Source: Nitrospirota bacterium
GTDB lineage: Bacteria > Nitrospirota > Thermodesulfovibrionia > UBA6902
DNA length: 33,836 nt
Direction: 5' to 3'
Assembly (NCBI GenBank): GCA_016234115.1
Contig: JACRHD010000058.1
Location: 1-33,836 of the forward strand
The position numbers and the translations under genes are program-made. Below are positions 9,781-28,059 of the stretch, in pieces. Each line of letters opens with the position of its first letter. The stretch's first letter is position 1. The notes beneath the pieces are model-generated. The model saw only the letters and a program-made list of their open reading frames with translations. It had not been told where the DNA came from and did not search any database.

Positions 9781-10641
9781 TTACTTCTTCTTTGCAGGAG
9801 CGGCCTTCGGAGCTTCTTTCGGGGACTCCTTCTTCTCCGCATCAGACCAATTGTTAAGGTCATGAGCTATGTTATGGCACTCGCCGCATTTATCGAATTT
9901 GGCGTGTATTCCCTTCGGGTGCGGCAAGCCGTGGCAGTCCTGGCAGTTCGGCACCATCTTGTGCTTTTCCTGGTGACAGAACGCGCAGGCAAACGACTGG
10001 TGCTTGGCGCTGCTGGCAGTGAGCGTGTCGAGGACCTTCTTGTGGCATGCGCCGCAGTTCGTTGAAGGGATACTGGCTGCATAGGTCACGACTGTCGGCA
10101 TATGAGGCTTGTGACAATTTCTGCAGTCGGACGCGGCCATCTCGGACGAGTGCGGCTTGTGGCACTGGGTGCACTGCGGGATCTTGCGGTGGACGTCGTG
10201 ACACATGGAGCAGTTAAGCGCCGAATGCTTGCTCTTATGGTCCCTGAGCTGGACGATCTGCTGAGAGTGGCAGGTAAGACAAGCGTCCGTAATATCCGTC
10301 CCAAACGCGATATTCAACGGCGTGTGAGGGTTCTTATGACAGTTGAGACAGCCCTTGAGCTCGAAATGGGGCTTCCCCATATGGCAGTTACTGCACAGGG
10401 GGATGGGTTTCTTTACTGTCGGCGGATGGCCTATATGACAGCCCAGGCAGCCGACGTCCTTGTGCTTTCCTCCGTGGGCTGAAAGGTCAGACGGCGGAGC
10501 GTCATGACACTTCAGACAATCATCGTTTGACAGCTCCGGTTTTGTCTGGGCTGTTTCGGCGCCGGTAAAAAACAGAAATACCGCAAGCACCGTAATCAGA
10601 AATATTACGACCGTAAGACCACTGCTTCTTAATACCTTCAT
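9781..10641 (-). CDS. Dodecaheme c-type cytochrome, paralogue 2 (Lys/Ala/Pro tail)
   Basis: This 286-residue protein has a hydrophobic N-terminus (about 9-30), which may be a signal peptide or anchor, and 12 CxxCH heme-binding motifs in roughly 230 residues, about one per 20. Many motifs continue as CxxCH-x2/3-H (CLGCHIGH, CLNCHKNPH, CTQCHKPH), which supplies His for bis-His ligation. It should be a periplasmic or membrane-tethered electron carrier. It is a clear paralogue of the next gene upstream, with the same 12-motif order and near-identical stretches such as CHDVHRKIPQCTQCH. It differs by a C-terminal tail of about 25 residues rich in Lys, Ala, Pro and Glu. A strong AAGGAGG ribosome-binding site precedes the ATG. 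No family name is claimed. Confidence 0.93.
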   Translation of the reverse strand: MKVLRSSGLTVVIFLITVLAVFLFFTGAETAQTKPELSNDDCLKCHDAPPSDLSAHGGKHKDVGCLGCHIGHPPTVKKPIPLCSNCHMGKPHFELKGCLNCHKNPHTPLNIAFGTDITDACLTCHSQQIVQLRDHKSKHSALNCSMCHDVHRKIPQCTQCHKPHSSEMAASDCRNCHKPHMPTVVTYAASIPSTNCGACHKKVLDTLTASSAKHQSFACAFCHQEKHKMVPNCQDCHGLPHPKGIHAKFDKCGECHNIAHDLNNWSDAEKKESPKEAPKAAPAKKK

Positions 10642-10780: not shown

Positions 10781-10866
10781 AAGCGATCAGCAGTCAGCTA
10801 TCAGCCCTCAGCGTAAGCAGTTTGTGGTTTTTTTGCTGAAAGCTGATGGCTGACCGCTGACTGCTT
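10781..10866. repeat. Inverted repeat with tandem NNTCAGC 7-mer arms
   Basis: The left arm (10781-10817) reads as 7-bp units ending TCAGC (AGTCAGC, TATCAGC, CCTCAGC). The right arm (10834-10866) is the reverse complement of similar units. The right arm touches the stop codon of the upstream cytochrome gene (minus-strand stop at 10866-10868). A relative with the same 7-mer occurs at 13615-13687. Confidence 0.75.
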
Positions 10867-11654
10867 TACATATTCAGATCATGGGCGATATTGTGGCACA
10901 TGCCGCATTTCGGAAATTTTGCCATAAATATTTCCGGATGGGGTGTGCCATGACAGTCCCTGCAGTCTGGTATGGTCTTGTGCTTTCCCTGGTGGCAGAG
11001 AACGCACTCGAAGGTCCTGTGTTTGGCGGCGCTGGCGCTGAGCACCTCAAAGACCTTCTTGTGGCAGGCCCCGCAGTTGTTTGACAGCATGTCGTCTGCA
11101 AACGTTATGTTCTTGGGCTTGTGAGGGTCATGACATTTTTTGCACTCGGCGACGGCCATATCGTCCGAATGGGGCGTGTGGCACTGCGTGCACTGCGGGA
11201 TCTTGCGGTGGACGTCATGGCAGGTGGAGCAGTTGAGCGCCGTATGTTTGCTGGGGTTGTCCCTGAGCTGTTCGACTTGCTTCTCATGGCAGGTAAGACA
11301 GACATCGTTTCCCAACGTCGAAATGTTCAAAGGCGAATGCGGGTCCCTGTGGCAGTTGAGGCAGCCCTCTTGCCGGAAATGGGGCTTCCTCGTCTTAAGG
11401 TGGCACTTGCTGCACTGAGCGATCGGTTTCTTAACTTCCGGGGGATGACCGACGTGACAGCCGGCGCACGGGACATTCCTGTGTTTCCCTCCGGCCTCCG
11501 CCCTGGCATTTACCGGACCGGGATGGCACCTGACGCAGTCATCCTTTGTCCAGGGAAATTGCGTCTTTGCCGGCGCCTCGTCTGAATAAGCCGGAAACAG
11601 GGGGGCCAGAAATAGTACTATCATGATACTGATGCATTTCAGCGCGTTCATCAT
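10866..11654 (-). CDS. Dodecaheme c-type cytochrome, paralogue 1
   Basis: This 262-residue protein has a cleavable signal peptide (about 1-25, hydrophobic core then PAYSDEA) and 12 CxxCH motifs, so the mature protein carries about one heme per 20 residues. The extra His residues (CxxCHVGH, CxxCHRDPH, CxxCHDVH, CxxCHDPH) suggest bis-His coordination. It is expected in the periplasm as an electron-transfer protein. It ends at AHDLNM, without the charged tail of its paralogue. The pair arose by tandem duplication: a 37-bp stretch coding for HDVHRKIPQCTQCH differs at one base between the two genes. Two adjacent ATG codons follow a GGAAGGA site and either could be the start. The kinase-like gene lies 178 bp upstream on the same strand. 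Confidence 0.93.
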   Translation of the reverse strand: MMNALKCISIMIVLFLAPLFPAYSDEAPAKTQFPWTKDDCVRCHPGPVNARAEAGGKHRNVPCAGCHVGHPPEVKKPIAQCSKCHLKTRKPHFRQEGCLNCHRDPHSPLNISTLGNDVCLTCHEKQVEQLRDNPSKHTALNCSTCHDVHRKIPQCTQCHTPHSDDMAVAECKKCHDPHKPKNITFADDMLSNNCGACHKKVFEVLSASAAKHRTFECVLCHQGKHKTIPDCRDCHGTPHPEIFMAKFPKCGMCHNIAHDLNM

Positions 11655-11832: not shown

Positions 11833-13530
11833 TCAGGACATTTTCCATATTAACTCGAAGTTGCAGATAACGACCAGCGGGTTGCCGGAAATGTCCTTTA
11901 CTATGCCGCCGCTGCCGTCTGTGGCAAGGAGCAGGTCATTGGATTTCAAGAGGGAGCCGTCATAACGCAGGTCCTTGAGGTTCTCCTTGACCTTGTTCAG
12001 CAGCATCCGGCACTGGGTCTCATCAATCAGTCTCATGGTGACCGCCCTCGCGATATCCACGGGCACATAAAGGGGACCCGTTTGCTGGGCCACCCACTGA
12101 TCGGGGCCGTTATAATAGCCCCGGATGGTTATGTAATTGTGGTTCTCCTGAAGGATTGGATTGCCCTCAGGGTCCAGGATATGCTTGTGCAACTCGTATT
12201 TTCTGGTGTCTGATGAGGCCTCTATTTTTGATGTGCCCGTCATATAAACGGCCCGTACATAAACACACGGTATCCCTGAGCGGTTCAATTCATGAGCAAT
12301 GGCAAACTCTTCAAAAGGGCTGTTTATACCGTATTGAAGGATCTTGGGATTATATCTCTCTGCTTCCTCATCCGGCAGCTCGCCGACCCGCGAAGTTTCC
12401 CAGACAAGATGAATATTGTCCTTTGTGATCGTGTAGAATACCTCTTTTGTATCGGACAATCTGATGGAAGGCGTTTTTCTCCACCTCTCGGGGAGAAAAT
12501 AGTCGAACAGCCGGGCATTCTTTCCCACGACCCACAGGTGTCCGCCGGTGCTTTCCGCGTGACCGTATATGTAGGGCATGCCGAAAATCTCCATGCTCGT
12601 CAGGTGGTCGGGCAGCGGCGTCGGGATGAAACGGTCCCTCTGATCATCCAGGTAGGAATGCCTCCTTGAATTCTTGACTTCTTCTTCATGCCTTGAAGTG
12701 CGCAGGAGGAGCTCATAATCGACAAGTGAATATTGCCCGATATTGATAAGGTTATACAGGTAATAGACCTGCTCGCTCGGGGAATCGGACGTCTGTGTCC
12801 GTCCGATCTCTTCAATCCGCTCCGAATCGCGTCCGCTGATGATGATATGCTCGGGTTTCATGTCTGCGACCAGATATCCCTTCTGGTCCAGGTCGGACAT
12901 GACCAGGTTATTGAGGGTTTTCAGATGCTGCCGGCGGTCATCGCCGTTTACCGCTATGTGTTCAAAAAGCTCCGTGAGATTGTGCCCTTCTATCCATTCA
13001 TAAATCATTTTATACTGTTTGAGGATATCGACATCGATGCCGGGATGTTTTGCCCTGATGCGGTTGATCTTCGCCCTGGACCTCCCGCTTTGCCACATCT
13101 GCATCTTATCCGGAGGGACATAAATTACCATAGGACGCTGGGTGTTTATCTTCAGCTCCCTGGGACCGTACTGCCCGTCGCGCATCTCCATGACGAGAGA
13201 AAACTCTTCCCAGGGGCTGTTGAATTCAGCGTCGCAAAATTCCTGCAGGGTATGAGTGTCGAGCGGGACGTCTTCTCCCACGCGGCAGTTCTTGACCACG
13301 AGATTGAGACTGACGCCGTTGACGTCCTTTGTGGGGAGCTTGTAGACAGAGCCGGTCCCCTTCAGTTTTATCTTGTGGGCGTTGAACCAGCCCGGTTCAT
13401 ACCAGTTGGGTGTGTCGAAATGGTCCTGGTATTTTTCGGCGAACCTTGTTAAGTAAAGGTCTCCCCCGTCGCTCGTCTTAACGTGTGCGTACACAACCCC
13501 CAGGACATTGACAAGGGTCTTTTTGATCAT
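11833..13530 (-). CDS. Atypical protein-kinase-like protein with tandem degenerate second copy
   Basis: I recognise no named family for this 565-residue protein, but kinase signatures appear in order: a glycine loop GTGSVYK (58-64), a beta3-like LNLVVK with Lys80, a helix NSPWEEF with Glu108/109, a hinge-like YEWIEGHNL (177-185), a catalytic-loop-like VADMKPEHII (221-230; Asp223, Lys225), and a DFG-position VDYELL (Asp271). A second copy follows with the same spacing: IRLSDTKEVF in place of the glycine loop, HLVWETSRVGE (Glu378 where Lys80 would be; cf. VVKNCRVGE), NSPFEEF (403-409) and ICNFELI (Asn557 for Asp271). The second copy thus looks like a pseudokinase. No signal peptide or membrane helix is evident, so it is probably cytoplasmic. 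It lies upstream of the two cytochrome genes on the same strand. Kinase identity is inferred from motifs only. Confidence 0.6.
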   Translation of the reverse strand: MIKKTLVNVLGVVYAHVKTSDGGDLYLTRFAEKYQDHFDTPNWYEPGWFNAHKIKLKGTGSVYKLPTKDVNGVSLNLVVKNCRVGEDVPLDTHTLQEFCDAEFNSPWEEFSLVMEMRDGQYGPRELKINTQRPMVIYVPPDKMQMWQSGRSRAKINRIRAKHPGIDVDILKQYKMIYEWIEGHNLTELFEHIAVNGDDRRQHLKTLNNLVMSDLDQKGYLVADMKPEHIIISGRDSERIEEIGRTQTSDSPSEQVYYLYNLINIGQYSLVDYELLLRTSRHEEEVKNSRRHSYLDDQRDRFIPTPLPDHLTSMEIFGMPYIYGHAESTGGHLWVVGKNARLFDYFLPERWRKTPSIRLSDTKEVFYTITKDNIHLVWETSRVGELPDEEAERYNPKILQYGINSPFEEFAIAHELNRSGIPCVYVRAVYMTGTSKIEASSDTRKYELHKHILDPEGNPILQENHNYITIRGYYNGPDQWVAQQTGPLYVPVDIARAVTMRLIDETQCRMLLNKVKENLKDLRYDGSLLKSNDLLLATDGSGGIVKDISGNPLVVICNFELIWKMS

Positions 13531-13885: not shown

Positions 13886-14506
13886 ATGGACCGGGAAAGG
13901 GTGGAAGCCTTTCTCGATTCGCTCGGCCCCCTTTCCTTTGCCGGGTTCATACTTCTGCAGGTCCTGCAGGTCGTTGCGGCCCCTGTACCCGGCGAGGCCA
14001 CGGGCTTTTTAGGCGGCTTCCTTTACGGAACGGCGCTGGGCCTTGTTTTGTCTACCATAGGTCTTACGATAGGCTCTTTTATAAATTTCTATCTGGCAAA
14101 GACGTTCGGACGCCCCCTGATAGACCGCTTCATCAGTAAAGAGACGATAGACCGGTATGATTATCTGCTCCACCATAAGGGCGCCTTTCTCGTCTTTCTC
14201 CTTTTTCTTATCCCCGGCTTGCCGAAGGACCTCCTCTGTTACATCCTCGGCCTCGGGCATCTTTCCGTAAAAGAGTTCCTGATCATCAGCACCGTGGGGC
14301 GATTTTTCGGAACAGTCCTTCTCACTCTCGGAGGAAGCTTCATACGACACCAGCAATACTACCGGTTCTCGATGCTGTTAGGCGCGGCCATTGTAATCAT
14401 CTTTTTTGCGATGGCCTACAAGGACAAATTAGAGAGGCTTTTCCGGAAGCTGCATATCGGGTCAAGGAGGAAACATTCCCGGAAAAAATCGGGGGGAAAT
14501 AAGTAG
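13886..14506 (+). CDS. TVP38/TMEM64 (VTT-domain) membrane protein; true start probably upstream
   Basis: This member of the DedA-like VTT superfamily is an integral membrane protein of unresolved function; relatives are linked to membrane lipid handling. The 206-residue reading from ATG 13886 has the VTT core: a helix from PLSFAGFILLQVLQ, a re-entrant segment VPGEATGFLGGFLYG, helices near 60-80, 95-115, 125-150 and 155-175, and a basic tail (RRKHSRKKSGGNK). The same frame stays open upstream to 13766 and encodes a further helix, VAVIATFLIAVYVLY, matching the first membrane helix normally found in this family. No ATG, GTG or TTG exists there. A GTG at 13762 is one base out of frame and would join after loss of one A from AAAAA. 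The given start is therefore conservative. Confidence 0.85.
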   Translation: MDRERVEAFLDSLGPLSFAGFILLQVLQVVAAPVPGEATGFLGGFLYGTALGLVLSTIGLTIGSFINFYLAKTFGRPLIDRFISKETIDRYDYLLHHKGAFLVFLLFLIPGLPKDLLCYILGLGHLSVKEFLIISTVGRFFGTVLLTLGGSFIRHQQYYRFSMLLGAAIVIIFFAMAYKDKLERLFRKLHIGSRRKHSRKKSGGNK

Positions 14507-14535
14507 GGGCGAACGGCCGTTCGCCCCTGGTTTTC
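14505..14535 (+). terminator. Intrinsic terminator after the VTT gene
   Basis: AGGGGCGAACGG (14505-14516) is followed at once by its exact reverse complement (14517-14528), then GGTTTTC. The stem begins inside the TAG stop codon of the VTT gene. Confidence 0.8.
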
Positions 14536-14667
14536 TTGCACGATTCTCCTTGCTGTTTAGAGTGATTTAGATTAATATTAAGCGGTGGATTTTTAAAGGG
14601 GAACGGGCATCATGTCTTAATGATGCTGCCTGATGATGACTTAATTAAAACTATATTCAATCTTCAT

Positions 14668-14702
14668 GCTGACATACTGTCGGACTTTAAAGTAATGTCA
14701 GC
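14668..14702 (+). other. Hairpin upstream of the helicase remnant
   Basis: GCTGACAT (14668-14675) pairs perfectly with ATGTCAGC (14695-14702), followed by AGTTTTATT. It could be a weak terminator or a remnant regulatory element. Nothing else is recognised in 14536-14722. Confidence 0.35.
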
Positions 14703-14722
14703 AGTTTTATTAATATAAGCGA

Positions 14723-15877
14723 TTGGCAGGACAGGAAGTGGTAGATGAGTCAGTTCGTCAAAAGCATACAGAGATCGGTTTTGACACCGGTGTGACGGAC
14801 TGTATGCGGCTCACAGTTCCTCGTGACCTGATTATGTTGAATACCCCGGCAATCAACAGCTTTGATTTTCAGAATGTGTTGACCATACCCCGTGCGGCAT
14901 CATTTTCCGGCAGTATTGCGCACCTCCGGCAATTGGACAGCTTCCTCACCGGTGAATATAACCTGCCGCCGCAGACAATTACGACCAGTGACGTATGTTT
15001 TGTTCCACCTCCTGCGGAGAACCTGCCTTACCTCAAGTACCGGTTCGGACTACAGATCATTAAAAACGAAGACAAGCGGATTCTCGACTACTCTGAGCTG
15101 ATGACCAAAATCGAAAAAGGGGAAGGCTCAAGCATAATTGATTTTGTGGATGGATACCTTAAAGAGAAAGTAGTCAATACCTACGATGAGACTAATTCCA
15201 GCTTCCGGGAGGAATATCCGAAGAACTCTGCACGTTTTTTTTATTCCGATAATCCATTGCCGCTCAATCAATCGCAAAAGAAAATATTGACGGCAATCGG
15301 GAATCCAAAAAACAGGATCGTGGTTATTGATGGACCTCCGGGAACAGGTAAGTCTCACACAATCGGCGCAATTACCTATTGGTCGAATCAGCACAAAAAG
15401 TCCATTGTCATCACTTCCCACAAAAAAGAAGCTCTGGATGTTGTTGAACGGATGCTGACCGACAAGTTCAAGTCACTCCATCCTCACACCAAGCCTTCAG
15501 TCATCAGGATTACCCGAAACAATGACCTCTCTACCCTCAACACCATCGATAATTCGCTTTCCCTGCCGGTCATAGATGGCGCTGCGCGAAGGTCTGACGA
15601 GTTCAATCTTGAAGCTGTAGAGCGTGACCGCGTAAAGGTGCGAGACAGCATCGAACAAACCATCAATACGGCAATAAATCACGCCAGACTCTTTCCTGAG
15701 ATGAGCAAGAAACTTCTTCGTTTCATCCAGTTGGAGGAAGAGCTTGTCGTGAATTCAGATGAGCTTACCGGAACACCGACTGCGAGGATGAGAAAATCTT
15801 TGGCTCGCCTATGGAGAAAGATCTCTACGCACTCATCATCCAGAGTGATTTTTATCGCAAGAATAGGGACAGCCTGA
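14723..15877 (+). pseudogene. Remnant of a superfamily 1 (Upf1-like) helicase, N-terminal part
   Basis: The 384-residue frame contains the Q-motif-like LNQSQKKIL and Walker A IDGPPGTGKSHT (near residues 203-214), followed by motif Ia-like KSIVITSHKKEALDVVERML, as in AAA_11/AAA_12 DNA-RNA helicases. Motifs II to VI are absent. After a coiled-coil-like stretch the frame runs into unrelated sequence (RLWRKISTHSSSRV), while the +2 frame continues as a nuclease-like C-terminal domain (15763-16227). It looks like a large helicase-nuclease gene that lost over a kilobase in the middle, with the junction near 15760-15800. The TTG at 14723 has no ribosome-binding site, so the 5' end is probably missing too. 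Intact relatives are common in defence islands. Confidence 0.7.
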
Positions 15878-16227
15878 AAGTCATTCCCCAATTTGATATA
15901 GGCAAGTACATCAGGCAGGAGTATAAAAAATATATTCCCCGTTACCGGGTGGACTTTCTGCTTACCCTCGCCTCAGGCGGCAAAGAGAAAAGCCTGATAC
16001 TGGAGTACGACGGCCTTGAGTATCACACAAAAGATTCGTCGGTGGTGAGGTCGCTTGAGGACTTCAGGGAAGAATATCTCGAATACGACATCACCCGGCA
16101 GCTTGAACTGGAGAGCTACGGTTATCATTTTCTGCGAATAAATAAGTTTACACTGCTGCCAAAAGCGGTTGGGCAGACCCGGCTGGATGTCTTGAATGAC
16201 CTGCTGGGGAAAACCTTCGCTCTGTAA
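15763..16227 (+). pseudogene. C-terminal nuclease-like domain fragment of the broken helicase gene
   Basis: The frame reads SPMEKDLYALIIQSDF, then RVDFLLTL, SLILEYDGLEYH, and a C-terminal YDITRQLELESYGYHFLRIN. This is the layout of DUF559/DUF2726-like PD-(D/E)xK domains that close many SF1 helicases, with Asp in RVDF and the E-x-D of LEYDG as likely catalytic acids. An ATG at 15811 could restart translation and make a 138-residue protein, but no ribosome-binding site is visible. It overlaps the preceding frame, consistent with a deletion junction. Confidence 0.6.
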
Positions 16228-16244
16228 AAGCGCATTGCTTGGGC

Positions 16245-16273
16245 TTGATATTATCGCCCCATAGGGGTATTAT
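16245..16273 (+). promoter_or_regulatory. Sigma70-type promoter of the AAA ATPase gene, with a dyad in the spacer
   Basis: TTGATA (16245-16250) and TATTAT (16268-16273) are spaced by 17 bp. The spacer ends in CCCC-ATA-GGGG (16257-16267), a dyad abutting the -10 that could be an operator. The gene starts 34 bp downstream of the -10. Confidence 0.6.
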
Positions 16274-16306
16274 ATTTTCAATTAACATCCTGTATAGGGA
16301 GTTTTT

Positions 16307-17626
16307 TTGAATAAAGAATCTGTCCTTAACATCATATTCGAGTGGCAAAAAATCGTTCAGGGCCGCCAGGGAACACTTCGGGAGGCAGAGCCTCTGATCA
16401 TGAGTTCAATAGGTTCCAAACCTATAAAGATAGTCACCGGGTTCCGCCGCACCGGCAAGTCCTTTCTGGTACAGCTCATAGCAAAAAAACTGATCGACAG
16501 GGGTGATATCGCTCCCGATAATTTGCTGTACCTTAATTTCGAGGACTACCGCCTGATGGGGGTCGTAAATCCGGAGAAGCTCGGCGATGTTTATGATACA
16601 TTTTTGCAATCCTCAGAGCGGCCGGGCCGGAAGCTCCTGATATTCGATGAAATCCAGCAGGTCTCAAACTGGGAGCGGTTTATCAGAACAATATATGAAA
16701 AAGGCGGCGTGGAGATAATTATAACAGGGTCGAATTCGAGTCTTCTGTCATCGGAGCTGGGCAGCGGGCTGGCAGGCAGATTTGTGGAGTTTTCAATATA
16801 CCCTTTCAGCTTCAAAGAGTTCGTCCGCTACAGGGGACATTCAATCCGGTCAAAGAAGGAGTTTCAACGCAATAAACCCGAACTGCTCAAGCTGTTTAAC
16901 GAATACCTGTCTTACGGCGGGTTTCCGGAGACCTTTGACATTGGCTCGCCTGACGCCAAAAAGTCTTATATCGGCGGCATACTGCACAAGGTGATACTTG
17001 ATGATATCGTCAAGCGTTTCAGAGTAGACAATGTTGACGCGCTCGAAAAGATCATGCACTATCTGATTTCAGGGGCCGGGAACATTGTAAGCTATGCGGG
17101 ACTCCGCAACAAAATGGCTGCGCTGGGCCTTAAGGTCAAGCCGGAGACCGTACTTACGTACTGCAACTATTTCATAAAGTCCTTCGCCCTTTCAGAGCTT
17201 TCCAAGTTCAGCTGGAAGCTTGGGAAGGTCTTCAGCACGTCAAAGAAATATTACGCAGTGGATACCGGCCTCATGTCTTTGTACGCGCCGATAGAGGAAA
17301 ACTATTCAGTCCGCCTGGAGCATATTGTTTATCACGAGCTGAAGAGAAGATATGCCGGGATTTGTTACGGCGCAGGGGACGGCGGAAGAGAGATAGATTT
17401 TCTTGTGCGCAAGGACCGCTGGATATGGGAGAAATATCAGGTAGCTCTCAAGCTGGATAAAGGCAATGAGAAGCGCGAGCTTGGTGCCTTTACTCTGGCA
17501 GACCAGTATCTTACGCAGGGAGAAGATCATATTCTTACTATGGACGACGGAGCTGAGGAAATCGAATATTCCGGACGGAGGATATACCGCAAAAATATAC
17601 TGTCATGGCTGCTCGGAATTGATTAG
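16307..17626 (+). CDS. AAA_14 / DUF4143 family ATP-binding protein
   Basis: This 439-residue protein is a complete member of the AAA_14-DUF4143 family: Walker A GFRRTGKS (45-52), Walker B LLIFDEIQQ (Asp114, Glu115), sensor-like IIITGSNSSLLS (about 136-147), GRFVEFSIYPFSFKEF, then the DUF4143 domain with VDTGL and a nuclease-like end (GGREIDFLV...YQVALKLD). Members are widespread, often multicopy, and sit in variable regions; the biochemical role is not established. The TTG at 16307 is preceded by AGGGAG. It has its own promoter and lies between two broken defence-type genes, so it is the only intact gene in the island 14723-19005. Confidence 0.9.
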   Translation: MNKESVLNIIFEWQKIVQGRQGTLREAEPLIMSSIGSKPIKIVTGFRRTGKSFLVQLIAKKLIDRGDIAPDNLLYLNFEDYRLMGVVNPEKLGDVYDTFLQSSERPGRKLLIFDEIQQVSNWERFIRTIYEKGGVEIIITGSNSSLLSSELGSGLAGRFVEFSIYPFSFKEFVRYRGHSIRSKKEFQRNKPELLKLFNEYLSYGGFPETFDIGSPDAKKSYIGGILHKVILDDIVKRFRVDNVDALEKIMHYLISGAGNIVSYAGLRNKMAALGLKVKPETVLTYCNYFIKSFALSELSKFSWKLGKVFSTSKKYYAVDTGLMSLYAPIEENYSVRLEHIVYHELKRRYAGICYGAGDGGREIDFLVRKDRWIWEKYQVALKLDKGNEKRELGAFTLADQYLTQGEDHILTMDDGAEEIEYSGRRIYRKNILSWLLGID

Positions 17627-17640
17627 CAGGGAGATGAAGA

Positions 17641-19005
17641 ATGTCCAAAATAAATCTGACTGAAGAAGAACTCAAACAACTGCTGAAAGCGGTAAACGCG
17701 GGCGCTGAGCCTTCGCCTGAGCTTGCCGGGAAGATATTCCCGTCTCTCATGGAGAAGCTGGGGCAGGAAGGAAAGTTCGACTTCGAGACATTGAACCGGA
17801 TCAAGATTCCAACTATAGAATATGCGGGTAAGAGGTCGCAAGGTGTGATTCTGGCATCTGCTGCCGCTCTTGGACAGTCCGCGCCTCTGCAGGTGGTCCG
17901 CAGCTTCGGATCAGAAAAAGAACGGCTGGAAGAACCTCATTGTGCAGGGGGACAATTTACAATTTCTGAAGACGGTCTATCTCAATCAGGACCCGCTGAT
18001 TAAGGACAAGGTGAAGGGGAAGGTAAAGCTTATCTACAATGATCCGCCGTTTGCGACAAAGTCGGATTTTCAGGGAAGCAACGGCAGTAAGAGTTACAGT
18101 GACAAGATAGAATCAGCAGAATTTCTAGAAAATTTCCGTGAGCGCCTGCTTTTTTTACGAGAATTATTAGATTCAGATGGAAGCATTTATGTGCACATGG
18201 ACTGGAAAAAGGGGCATTATATTAAAGCTCTCATGGACGAGATATTTGGAATTGAAAACTTATTATCTGAAATAATTTGGAAGCGAACAACAGCCCATTT
18301 CACGGCTCAAGGTTTTGCATTTATTCATGATTCAATTTTCTGGTACAAAAAACAGACCAATTTGTCTTTAATAAGCCGTACATAGAACATTCGGAATCAT
18401 ATCTCGACTCTAAGTATAAATATGAAGATGAAACCGCAAAGTACAGGTTGAGTGATGCATCAGGTAAGGGGCAAGGACCGGCCAGAATATTCTTTGGGAA
18501 AATGATTAAACCGCCTGCTGGTAGGCACTGGCCATCTCAACAATATATTGATGAAAATATTAACTTGTACGTGTTGGGTGAAGATGGAATGCCCCAGAAG
18601 AAGTCATACCTAAAGGGGGCGACTATTGGTTCAGTATGGAATGATATTGATCCTGTAAACTCACAAGCATTTGAGAGAATCGGATACCCCACTCAAAAAC
18701 CTGAGGCCCTGCTCGAACGCATCATCAAAGCATCTTCCAACCCCGGCGATCTTGTCATGGACATCTTTGGCGGCTCCGGCACAACCGCTGCTGTGGCGGA
18801 GAAGCTTGGCAGACGCTGGATTACCTGCGACTTCGGCAAGCACTCCATCTACACGATGCAGAAACGCATCCTGAATATTGCTGATTCCAAGTTTCAGAAA
18901 AGAACAAGGGGTCGCACCTTGACTTTGTACGGTTTTGAAAAGCAGGACGTTCTTGATTTCAAAAAAAATATGAGCAAGATGACATGGTCAAGACCGTTTC
19001 AATAA
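17641..19005 (+). pseudogene. Beta-class N6-adenine/N4-cytosine DNA methyltransferase (Mod-like) with two frameshifts
   Basis: Three reading segments make one methyltransferase of about 454 residues. Segment 1 (17641 to about 17919) is an N-terminal region ending APLQVVRSFGSEK. Segment 2 (about 17920-18350) has NGWKNLIVQGDNLQFLK, the catalytic NDPPF and LDSDGSIYVHMDW. Segment 3 (about 18352-19005) has [14 protein letters not shown] and the AdoMet motif DIFGGSGTT. Segment 1 joins segment 2 if A5 at 17915-17919 is read as A4; segment 2 joins segment 3 if A6 at 18347-18352 is read as A7. Motif IV before motif I is the beta-class order. No partner restriction gene follows; pckG converges 13 bp away. 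The causes could be decay, assembly error or slippage-based switching. Confidence 0.85.
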
Positions 19006-19018
19006 TCCCTGAATACGC

Positions 19019-20806
19019 TTACCCCAACCGCTCCATAAACTCCTGGAACTGCTTCTTCAGCCTCTCCGGCATGCGGCTGCCGAAGGTCGAGAAGTGCTCT
19101 TTTATATCGGGGATCTCGGCCTTCCATTCATCGGCGTTTACGCTCATGAGTTCTTTCATTTTTTCAGGCGATACATTGAGACCGCTGATGTCGAGGTCTC
19201 CGTCTTTCGGCAGTAATCCTATGGGAGTTTCCCGGGCGCCGACTTTGCCTTCAACGCGCTCGCACATCCACTTGAGCGCGCGGCTGTTGTCGCTGAAACC
19301 GGGCCACAGGAACCTGCCGTCCCCGTTCTTTCTGAACCAGTTGACATAGAAAATCTTCGGGGCCTTATTGCCGAGCCTGTCTCCCATATTGAGCCAGTGC
19401 TGGAAATAATCGCCCATGTTGTACCCGCAGAACGGCTTCATCGCAAAGGGGTCGCGTCTGAGATTGCCGACGGCCCCGATATTGGCGGCGGTCGTCTCGG
19501 AGGCGGCGGTAGCGCCCATAAATACCCCATGGTCCCAGGTGAAGGCCTCGTATACAAGCGGCACGACATCGGAACGGCGGCCGCCGAATATGAAAATATC
19601 TATGGGAACGCCTTCGGGCTTTTCCCAGTCCTTGCAGATTGCCGGACACTGGGCCGCGGGGGCGGTAAAGCGCGCGTTGGCATGGGCCGCGTCTTCAGTG
19701 CTCGCGGGGGTCCAGTAGCGTCCTTTCCAGTCTATGGCATGCGCCGGCTCATCTCCGTCCATGCCTTCCCACCAGACGTCTCCGTCGTCGGTAAGGGCGC
19801 AGTTTGTGAAGATAACATTCTCCTTCAATGTGTCCATTGCCATGGGGTTCGTGCCGTACGATGTGCCCGGGGCCACTCCGAAGAAACCGTTTTCAGGATT
19901 AATGGCATAGAGCCTTCCGTCGGCGCCTGTCTTCAGCCACGCGATGTCGTCGCCGATACATTCGCATTTCCAGCCGGCAATGGAGGGCATCATCATAGCA
20001 AGGTTGGTCTTGCCGCACGCAGAGGGAAAGGCCGCGGCGATGTGATACTGTTTCCCCTCAGGGTTTGTGAGGCGCAGTATCAGCATATGCTCAGCCATCC
20101 AGCCTTCACGCCTTGCCATGGCCGAGGCGATGCGAAGGGCCAGGCATTTCTTTCCGAGAAGGGCATTGCCGCCATAGCCAGAGCCATACGACCAGATAAG
20201 ATTTTCCTCCGGGAAATGACTTATATATTTCTTTTCAATCGGGGCGCAGGGCCATTGGCTGTCTTTCTGTCCCGGCTCAAGGGGCGCGCCGACTGAATGA
20301 AGGCACGGGATAAAATCGCCGTCTGTTCCCAACAGTTCCAGTACACGCGAACTGACTCGCGTCATGATATGCATATTGACGACCACGTAGGGACTGTCCG
20401 ATATTTCAACTCCTATCTTTGAAATAGGCGAACCTATGGGCCCCATTGAAAAAGGGATAACATACATGGTGCGGCCTTTCATGCATCCCCTGTACAAATC
20501 CAGCATGGTTTTCTTCAGCTCGGAAGGATGGACCCAGTTATTGGTAGGCCCGGCCTCTTCTTTGGAAGAAGTGCTTATATAAGTACGGTCCTCAACGCGG
20601 GCCACGTCGCTCGGGTCGGAGCGGAAGAGAAAGCTGTTCGGACGTTTCTTTAGTGGAATTGCGATACCGCTTTTTAGCAGCTTTTCCATCATAGAGTCGT
20701 ATTCTTCTTTCGATCCGTCGCAGATGTAGATATCATCAGGCCGGCACAGCTCGTCAATTTCCCTGATCCACTTGTTGAGTTTTTCGTTCTTCACCGTGAC
20801 AGTCAT
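19019..20806 (-). CDS. pckG: Phosphoenolpyruvate carboxykinase (GTP)
   Basis: This cytosolic enzyme interconverts oxaloacetate and PEP using GTP, at the entry to gluconeogenesis. The 595-residue length is typical. GTP-type signatures are present: FPSACGKTN, the P-loop with the hyper-reactive Cys near residue 264; [15 protein letters not shown]; the IGDDIAW metal site; and the C-terminal [20 protein letters not shown] nucleotide-binding region. The ATG at 20806 follows AAGGAG by 7 bp. An in-frame extension to 20887 has no family similarity and is rejected. The gene is monocistronic and converges on the methyltransferase remnant. Confidence 0.97.
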
Positions 20807-20889
20807 AATATATCTCCTTAAGGGGGTATTTTCCGTAGCCATATAATATACATATTGCGCAGAGGAAAAATCTATATAGGTGATCAAGC

Positions 20890-26685: not shown

Positions 26686-28059
26686 CTACCCCACTATGTC
26701 AAATTCCCTAACCCTGAATTCCACCCCGAGCTCTTCCGCGATCTTCCTGCACTTCTCGACGTCTACTCCGGGTATTTTGACGATCGTGGCCTTTACCGAG
26801 GGGATGACCTGTACGGCCTCGCGGATGAAGGAAAGAACGCCTTCAAAGGAGCCCTTTATGGACGGCTTGCAGAGCTTCTCATATTTCTTTGAATCCTCAG
26901 CGTCGAGACTCACCGAAATGCAGTCAACAAGCCCCCTGAGCTCCGGCAGTATGTCTTTGCCGTGGATCAGGTTGCCCTGGCCGTTGGTGTTTATCCTGAC
27001 TTTGCCGCCGTTCTCCTTGACCCACGCCGATACTTTTTTCACGACGTCGAGCCTCAGGAGCGGTTCGCCTATGCCGCAGAAGACGATCTCTTTATATGCC
27101 TTCGGATCATTTATGGCTTTTATGATCTGCTGGGCGGAAGGTTCTTTTTCAAGGCGCAGGTTATGACCTTTTACATAGCTTGTGCGTGACTTGACGCAGA
27201 AGCCGCATCTGTTCGTGCACCTGTTTGTGATGTTCAGATAAAGAGAGTCCCTTATCCTGTATGCTATCTCTCCCCGCTCGGAAACCTCTCCTATTTTAAA
27301 AAGCCTCATCGCGTTGAGCGTCGTGATCCTTGCGAGGTCGGAAATGCTTATCCCCCTCGCGTCCGCAATCACCTGGGCGGTATGCGTCAGGAAAGACGGC
27401 TCATTCCTTTTCCCCCTCATCGGAACGGGCGCGAGATAAGGCGCGTCTGTTTCTATCAGCAGGAAATCATCCGGGATGAAACCGGCGATTTCCCTCAGGT
27501 CTTTTACGTTCTTGAAGGTGACGGGCCCTGCGATAGAGATGTAGAACCCGAGACCCATCGCCTCTTTTGCCATTTCCATGTCGCCTGAAAAGCAGTGGAG
27601 AACGCCCGGGACTTCGGAGGCCTCTTCCTTCAATATGCGGACAGTGTCCTTCTTCGCTTCCCTGCTATGGATAATGATCGGAAGGTCTACTTCCCGCGCG
27701 AGCGCTATCTGTTTAATAAACGCCTCTACCTGGACGCCTTTCGTTGAATGAAGGTAATGGTAATCCAGCCCGATCTCGCCCACGGCAACGACCTTGGGCC
27801 GGTCGCTCCACCTCTTGAGCTCAATAAGCAGGGACCGGTCCAGGTATTTGGCGTCATGAGGGTGAATGCCGACCGCGGAGTAAACATTCGGGTACCTGGT
27901 GGACAACTCAAGGCCTCTCAGGTTAGCTTCTCTGTCCGAGCCCGCGTTGATTATATATTTTACGCCCGCTTCAGCCGCCCTCGTTAAAACTTCATCCCTG
28001 TCGCCTTCAAATTCGTCCATTTCGAGGTGACAATGGGTGTCTATCATTTCAAACTTCAA
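26686..28059 (-). CDS. TatD-family nuclease fused to a radical SAM domain
   Basis: The 457-residue protein joins two enzymes. Residues 1 to about 255 are a TatD-type metal-dependent deoxyribonuclease with a full metal site: His9 and His11 (DTHCH), Glu95 (GEIGLDYH), His131 (IIIHSREA), His155 (LHCFSGD) and Asp205 (ETDAPYLAP). Residues about 265-457 are a radical SAM domain with the Fe-S motif Cys281-x3-Cys285-x2-Cys288 (CTNRCGFC), a GIGEPLL motif and SVSLDAED. Separate TatD-linked radical SAM proteins are known, so the fusion supports a shared task, but the reaction is unknown. The frame begins with TTG at 28059 (MKFEMIDTHCH). An internal ATG at 28047 is equally possible. The gene stands alone. 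Confidence 0.93.
   Translation of the reverse strand: MKFEMIDTHCHLEMDEFEGDRDEVLTRAAEAGVKYIINAGSDREANLRGLELSTRYPNVYSAVGIHPHDAKYLDRSLLIELKRWSDRPKVVAVGEIGLDYHYLHSTKGVQVEAFIKQIALAREVDLPIIIHSREAKKDTVRILKEEASEVPGVLHCFSGDMEMAKEAMGLGFYISIAGPVTFKNVKDLREIAGFIPDDFLLIETDAPYLAPVPMRGKRNEPSFLTHTAQVIADARGISISDLARITTLNAMRLFKIGEVSERGEIAYRIRDSLYLNITNRCTNRCGFCVKSRTSYVKGHNLRLEKEPSAQQIIKAINDPKAYKEIVFCGIGEPLLRLDVVKKVSAWVKENGGKVRINTNGQGNLIHGKDILPELRGLVDCISVSLDAEDSKKYEKLCKPSIKGSFEGVLSFIREAVQVIPSVKATIVKIPGVDVEKCRKIAEELGVEFRVREFDIVG

Follow-up and report, generated by a model that had tools for sequence, protein, structure and literature searches.

A Tandem Kinase-like and Pseudokinase-like Protein Encoded with GTP-dependent Phosphoenolpyruvate Carboxykinase in Nitrospirota

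Introduction

A 33,836-nt stretch of DNA from a Nitrospirota bacterium, hereafter referred to as the window, encodes a protein in which a series of kinase-like motifs appears to occur twice, the second time in degenerate form. A preliminary description of the sequence likened this arrangement to the active and dead kinase domains of JAK, knew of no named family for it, and placed the gene upstream of two multihaem cytochrome genes. The locus raises the question of whether a bacterium does encode such a pairing of a live and a dead kinase-like domain, and with which cellular partner it would work.

The Tandem Protein and its Motifs

The open frame of the protein, P0001, occupies exactly positions 11833–13530 of the minus strand, the preliminary description having named no strand. 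Each first-half motif of the preliminary description was found at the residues given there, as were Glu378, NSP (403–405) and Asn557 of the second copy, and the spacings between them were also correct, at 24 and 25 residues from the β3-like residue to NSP and 167 and 154 from NSP to the DFG position in the first and second copies, respectively. The features of the gene are as follows.

11833–13530, minus strand: tandem kinase-like/pseudokinase-like protein P0001, 565 aa (open frame; 46-sequence alignment A1)
12625–13530, minus strand: first, kinase-like half, residues 1–302 (the kinase residues checked are invariant in 61 tandem relatives; Foldseek with the whole model finds kinases)
13339–13359, minus strand: glycine-loop-like GTGSVYK, residues 58–64 (Gly58 in 61/61)
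13291–13293, minus strand: Lys80, at the β3-lysine position (61/61 tandem relatives; inside predicted strand 76–83)
13201–13221, minus strand: NSPWEEF, residues 104–110, with Glu108 and Glu109 as candidate αC glutamates (both Glu in 61/61; predicted helix 107–118)
12847–12864, minus strand: catalytic-loop-like DMKPEH, residues 223–228, with Asp223, Lys225 and His228 (Asp, Lys, Pro and His in 61/61)
12718–12720, minus strand: Asp271, at the position of the DFG Asp, here DYE/DFE (61/61)
11836–12624, minus strand: second, pseudokinase-like half, residues 303–565 (homology to the first half; AlphaFold2 pLDDT 83.5; Foldseek matches all at E > 0.01)
12397–12399, minus strand: Glu378, at the β3-Lys position of the second half (Glu in 29/46 close relatives)
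11935–11952, minus strand: LLKSND, residues 527–532, degenerate catalytic loop of the second half (catalytic Asp missing in 60/61)
11860–11862, minus strand: Asn557, replacing the DFG Asp in the second half (Asn in 60/61)

P0001 consists of two homologous domains. Its halves can be aligned by BLASTP (E = 5e-6, 27% identity over 115 aa), and their Smith-Waterman score of 85 was reached by none of 2000 shuffles (mean 34, maximum 63). Alignment of half-profiles by hhalign gave E = 1.5e-9 when these were built from close relatives and E = 6.1e-19 (Prob 99%, 225 columns) when divergent relatives were included, with VDYELL of the first half paired with CNFELI of the second. The similarity between the halves that the preliminary description had proposed is therefore detected by BLASTP, shuffling and hhalign alike.

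Conservation of the Two Halves

Conservation was assessed in 61 full-length tandem proteins, comprising 46 close and 15 more distant relatives. In the first half Gly58, Lys80, Glu108, Glu109, Asp223, Lys225, Pro226, His228, Asp271 and Glu273 are invariant in all 61, and Lys80, Glu109, Asp223, Lys225, Pro226, His228, Asp271 and Glu273 remain so when single-domain relatives (see below) are included, down to 29% identity. The second half retains NSPxEE in the tandem relatives, while the position equivalent to Asp223 is occupied by Leu, Ser, Asn or other residues (Asp is gone in 60/61) and that equivalent to Asp271 by Asn in 60/61, such that the change of the DFG Asp to Asn557 pointed out earlier extends across the family. 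The accompanying change of Lys to Glu378 holds for the window protein but is not a family hallmark, since other close relatives mostly have Lys or Arg at this position, as do 15/15 of the more distant tandem relatives; loss of the β3 Lys from the second half is thus late and partial. With its kinase-like homology (hhalign E = 6e-19) and its loss of catalytic residues, the second half can be classed as a pseudokinase domain. In a tandem member from Lentisphaerae (L048:8001–9662) the second half has Asp at the catalytic position (DLKGSH) and Asn in place of the DFG Asp, and possibly represents an intermediate in the loss of activity.

Fold and Placement Among Kinases

AlphaFold2 modelling of the whole protein on the family alignment gave a pLDDT of 82 and a pTM of 0.80, and the predicted secondary structure agrees with that of kinases: Lys80 falls within a strand and Glu108/109 within a helix, Asp223 is flanked by a strand on either side, and a short strand immediately precedes Asp271. 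When the 565-aa model was compared with the PDB using Foldseek, the best 50 matches were all protein kinases, mostly with probabilities of 0.9–1.0 (best E of 2e-4), at low TM-scores of 0.26–0.34 for the best matches, likely because the domain is minimal. Sequence profiles of the first half also ranked kinases first in the PDB (E 0.03–0.06). The second half yielded no match by sequence profile against the PDB; modelled alone, it was matched by Foldseek to haspin (0.93), the STK40 pseudokinase (0.90) and the TYK2 pseudokinase (0.89), all at E > 0.01. Overall, the fold is very probably kinase-like. The first half also carries the motifs of the PKL superfamily, β3 Lys, αC Glu, catalytic Asp and DFG Asp, in that order, and the top Foldseek matches, obtained with the whole-protein model and at low TM, are the kinases expected of that superfamily.

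Although kinase-like, the P0001 family does not belong to the canonical protein kinases. Neither P0001 nor ten relatives matched PF00069 or any Pkinase-family model at E ≤ 10, and nothing passed the cut-off when the same proteins were scanned with Pfam and NCBIfam, where one weak ABC1 kinase-like Pfam match (E 0.07) fell below it. In place of the canonical HRD, DFG and metal-binding Asn, the family has VAD or LxD, DYE/DFE and His228, with no HRD His or Arg and with Glu for the DFG Gly. Four single-domain relatives stop 7, 20, 24 and 32 residues past the DFG-position Asp, which indicates that a canonical activation segment with its APE motif and helices F–I are absent and that the fold is a minimal, non-canonical one; past this position the window protein has one predicted helix, at residues 279–298. 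The kinase-pseudokinase tandem originally read from motifs is thus sustained by the homology of the halves, their residue pattern and the Foldseek matches, though not as a canonical kinase, and it is likewise the case that no named family in Pfam or NCBIfam fits it. ‘Unnamed’ is used here with reference to Pfam, NCBIfam and the literature searched; a further 72 family models are contained in the protein kinase-like database KINtaro (PMC10870513).

Distribution and the Single-domain Form

A single copy of the gene was found in the window's genome. It is present in 30 of the 47 genomes of the window's order and in 39 of the 296 genomes sampled from the phylum; these carriers belong to the window's class and one family outside it. 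Named records that carry it are Nitrospirota/Thermodesulfovibrionia MAGs and one Lentisphaerae MAG. A profile search of the phylum of the latter (hereafter the second phylum) detected 22 members in 338 genomes, 18 of them tandem or split-tandem and four single-domain (∼300 aa), to which further search added a fifth single-domain member; a weak match in one of the 338 genomes (G382) looks like an ordinary kinase and was counted apart. No relatives were found in plasmids or viral contigs. In several MAG loci (L045, L050, L066, L185, and L187) the gene is split or interrupted, reflecting either assembly errors or real decay.

In the second phylum, argJ immediately follows the single-domain gene, with both on one strand, in 5/5 cases (L188, L189, L190, L191, and L206). 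At least two of the five overlap argJ by 1 nt, and the identity of ArgJ is confirmed by NCBIfam for four of the five neighbours. The single-domain form and ArgJ are regarded as a separate enzyme-kinase pairing. The neighbours of tandem genes in the second phylum were varied, with no common partner found.

Association with Phosphoenolpyruvate Carboxykinase

The conserved partner of the tandem gene is a phosphoenolpyruvate carboxykinase (PEPCK) gene.

19019–20887, minus strand: GTP-dependent phosphoenolpyruvate carboxykinase (pckG), 622 aa (PF00821 E = 8e-171; PF17297 E = 6.5e-101)

In the window the two genes are parted by ∼5.5 kb of opposite-strand genes. Both genes were found together in 53 distinct loci. 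In all 53 PEPCK lies upstream and shares the strand of the kinase-like gene, and in 39 the two are no more than 250 bp apart; these adjacency counts are lower bounds. Among the 296 genomes of the phylum, 39 contain both genes, none the kinase-like gene only, nine PEPCK only and 248 neither, that is, PEPCK is present in 39/39 carriers, the kinase-like gene in 0/248 PEPCK-less genomes, and PEPCK stands without it in 9/48 PEPCK-bearing genomes (Fisher P = 2e-40 by genome and hypergeometric P = 2e-21 by genus, shared ancestry being ignored). The corresponding counts for the 47 genomes of the window's order are 28, two, eight and nine (P = 6e-4, shared ancestry again ignored), with PEPCK unaccompanied in 8/36 PEPCK-bearing genomes; the two carriers in which no PEPCK was found are G012 (78% complete) and G045 (94% complete, with the kinase-like gene on a 4-kb contig). 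Since PEPCK commonly occurs without the kinase-like gene, which itself almost always occurs with PEPCK, the dependence is one-sided, the kinase needing PEPCK and not the reverse. The association is confined to one PEPCK orthologue group (77–87% identical to that of the window) and does not extend to the 50% or 30% types. PEPCK was found in 39/41 tested genomes of the second phylum and is not adjacent to the kinase-like gene there, and being nearly universal and non-adjacent it affords no test of co-occurrence in that phylum.

Close PEPCK orthologues without the kinase-like gene are found at L134 (G029) and L135 (G306), and in G029 the gene is flanked by an M50 protease gene and trpS, as at loci that carry the kinase-like gene, forming a natural empty site. 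Tyr344 and Thr346 of the window PEPCK are invariant in 59 kinase-linked PEPCKs; they are changed in the kinase-less G306, kept in the kinase-less G029, and absent in the PEPCKs of the second phylum (Thr to Ser), and are no more than a weak lead towards a PEPCK site tracking the kinase-like gene.

Proposed Mode of Action and Alternatives

P0001 is proposed to be an enzyme of a minimal, atypical kinase-like type that contains its own pseudokinase domain and works with GTP-dependent PEPCK, a reading that as a whole stands at about an even chance. Its first half is probably catalytic, to judge by the residues it retains. This half would bind ATP and Mg by means of the Gly loop and the Lys80-Glu108/109 pair, with His228 and Asp271 serving the metal, and Asp223 and Lys225 would transfer phosphate to a hydroxyl on the partner; the Asp-x-Lys-Pro sequence favours a Ser/Thr-type transfer. 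The second half, in which the catalytic Asp is lost and Asn is found at the DFG position, would not phosphorylate, and may instead dock the partner or sense a metabolite and so tune the first half. For Nitrospirota, PEPCK or PEPCK flux would be the likeliest partner. Within its bacterial group the gene almost never occurs apart from that of PEPCK, which it usually follows directly, suggesting that its product may be a dedicated PEPCK switch. A functional link between the two is likely, while the further step that PEPCK is the direct substrate, which rests on their genomic association, is plausible but somewhat doubtful. More tentatively still, the proteins could constitute a new family of minimal kinases lacking a C-lobe after DFG, in which each form has a single metabolic enzyme as its partner: ArgJ for the single-domain form and, for the duplicated, active-plus-dead form, GTP-dependent PEPCK, which would be modified so as to switch gluconeogenic or anaplerotic flux.

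The main rival is that the first half phosphorylates a small molecule, acting as a metabolite kinase, with the nearness of PEPCK reflecting a shared pathway and not protein modification. The missing C-lobe would leave room for such a substrate, and the absence of the activation segment and APE past DFG, the substitution of DFE/DYE for DFG, resembling the choline-kinase-like IDFE, the His that the metal site shares with that of the sugar kinase WaaP, and the position of single-domain relatives beside another metabolic gene, argJ, are all in its favour, but the Asp-x-Lys-Pro catalytic loop is the pattern of Ser/Thr protein kinases, and protein kinases are the top matches in both sequence and fold. 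This alternative is judged unlikely, though it deserves serious consideration.

It could also be supposed that the kinase-like and PEPCK genes have travelled together as one operon with no functional relation, as their tight, operon-like adjacency in most loci and the existence of close PEPCK orthologues without the kinase-like gene might suggest. However, order and strand are identical in all 53 loci although the flanking genes change, and the pair has been kept when split by inserts (the window, L003, L028, and L103) or unlinked (G016, G013, and G014). In G016 the kinase-like gene is at 1.03 Mb and PEPCK at 3.11 Mb of one contig, and the retention of both ∼2 Mb apart indicates that linkage is not the whole reason for their co-occurrence; operon travel as the sole explanation is improbable. 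Less probable again is that P0001 transfers AMP or another group, by SelO- or SidJ-like chemistry, in place of phosphate: the active site is non-canonical and YdiU/SelO and SidJ are among the weak Foldseek matches of the second half, but those matches have probabilities of ≤0.3, and the Asp223 and Lys225 retained in the first half fit ordinary phosphotransfer.

The multihaem cytochrome genes remain to be considered.

10866–11654, minus strand: 12-haem cytochrome c3/c7-like protein, a local, non-conserved neighbour (Pfam)
9781–10641, minus strand: second 12-haem cytochrome, paralogue of the 10866–11654 protein (Pfam; same sequence cluster)

These genes follow that of P0001 on the same strand, 178 bp past its stop codon, so the context reported in the preliminary description is true of the window, but it is PEPCK, and not the cytochromes, that is the conserved partner: a gene with at least four CxxCH motifs lies within 3 kb downstream in only 3/66 distinct loci, on which ground the cytochromes were rejected as partners and a role for P0001 in their redox signalling or assembly is exceedingly improbable. 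Each cytochrome has 12 CxxCH motifs, and the pair probably arose by tandem duplication.

The M50 protease and trpS genes common near the locus were also rejected as partners, as their sides and strands vary and they are present in G029 without the kinase-like gene; they are judged to belong to a shared locus. In the window, the ∼5 kb of opposite-strand genes that split the PEPCK-kinase pair (13886–19005) encode a VTT/DedA protein, an AAA_11 helicase-like piece, an AAA_14/DUF4143 ATPase, a weak REase MTES_1575-like ORF and an N6/N4 DNA methylase fragmented over two or more ORFs (17870–18385 and 18448–19005). Elsewhere (26686–28059), a 457-aa ORF appears, on sequence evidence, to fuse a TatD-type hydrolase to a radical-SAM-like second half.

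Significance

Kinase-pseudokinase tandems are already a known idea, and the P0001 family is one that neither Pfam nor NCBIfam names; it extends the kinase-like fold by an unnamed branch. Its members form a natural series, from single-domain through duplicated to half-dead proteins, in which the emergence of a pseudokinase beside its live sister can be followed. Should the proposed mechanism hold, P0001 would represent a bacterial kinase dedicated to PEPCK and regulated by a pseudokinase within its own chain. In a limited literature search no bacterial kinase dedicated to PEPCK was described, no paper linked a kinase to bacterial PEPCK, and nothing direct emerged on a PEPCK/Nitrospirota kinase or on the P0001 motif. 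If the PEPCK link is direct, it would offer a testable site of control over the flow of carbon through the PEP-oxaloacetate node in uncultured Nitrospirota, subsurface and sulfate-reducing.

Comparison with Known Systems

With the Ser/Thr protein kinases (PF00069, including bacterial Hanks-type enzymes such as PknB), P0001 shares the β3 Lys, αC Glu, DxKPx(N/H) loop and DFG-position Asp, in order. It differs from them in having no Pfam match (E ≤ 10), no HRD His or Arg, His for Asn, Glu for the DFG Gly, and neither APE nor helices F–I. A parallel at the metal site is provided by the WaaP/Kdo LPS kinases, in which, as in P0001, the residue five positions beyond the catalytic Asp is His and not the Asn of the second metal site; in WaaP this His, H168, takes over coordination of the second Mg from Asn, and the H168A substitution abolishes growth (PMC6147952). 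The corresponding Asp-x4-His arrangement, Asp223/His228, is invariant in P0001 and its relatives, which differ from these kinases in the lack of HRD and in the tandem with a dead copy. Pfam Kdo models matched neither P0001 nor the ten relatives, and no LPS gene context was seen in the window or among the conserved-neighbour clusters.

Seven bacterial pseudokinase families have been reviewed, ActPs1–3, GLW, CP1, DYD and DLHK (PMC12599244). Like the second half of P0001, they have a kinase-like domain that lacks at least one of the three catalytic residues. They are, however, Hanks-type Ser/Thr kinase families, whereas the dead domain of P0001 is a duplicate of the live domain that adjoins it, and the words ‘tandem’ and ‘Nitrospir’ are absent from the review (PMC12599244).

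The JAKs and the plant tandem kinase-pseudokinase proteins resemble P0001 in that a single chain contains both a live kinase domain and a dead one. In JAKs the pseudokinase is N-terminal to the kinase, and in P0001 it is the kinase-like half that is N-terminal. The comparison with JAK made at the outset therefore survives as a loose analogy between live and dead pairs, the order being reversed and the active domain lacking a C-lobe after the DFG position. In relation to both the JAK and the plant tandems, P0001 is a kinase-first protein of unrelated sequence, minimal fold and bacterial origin.
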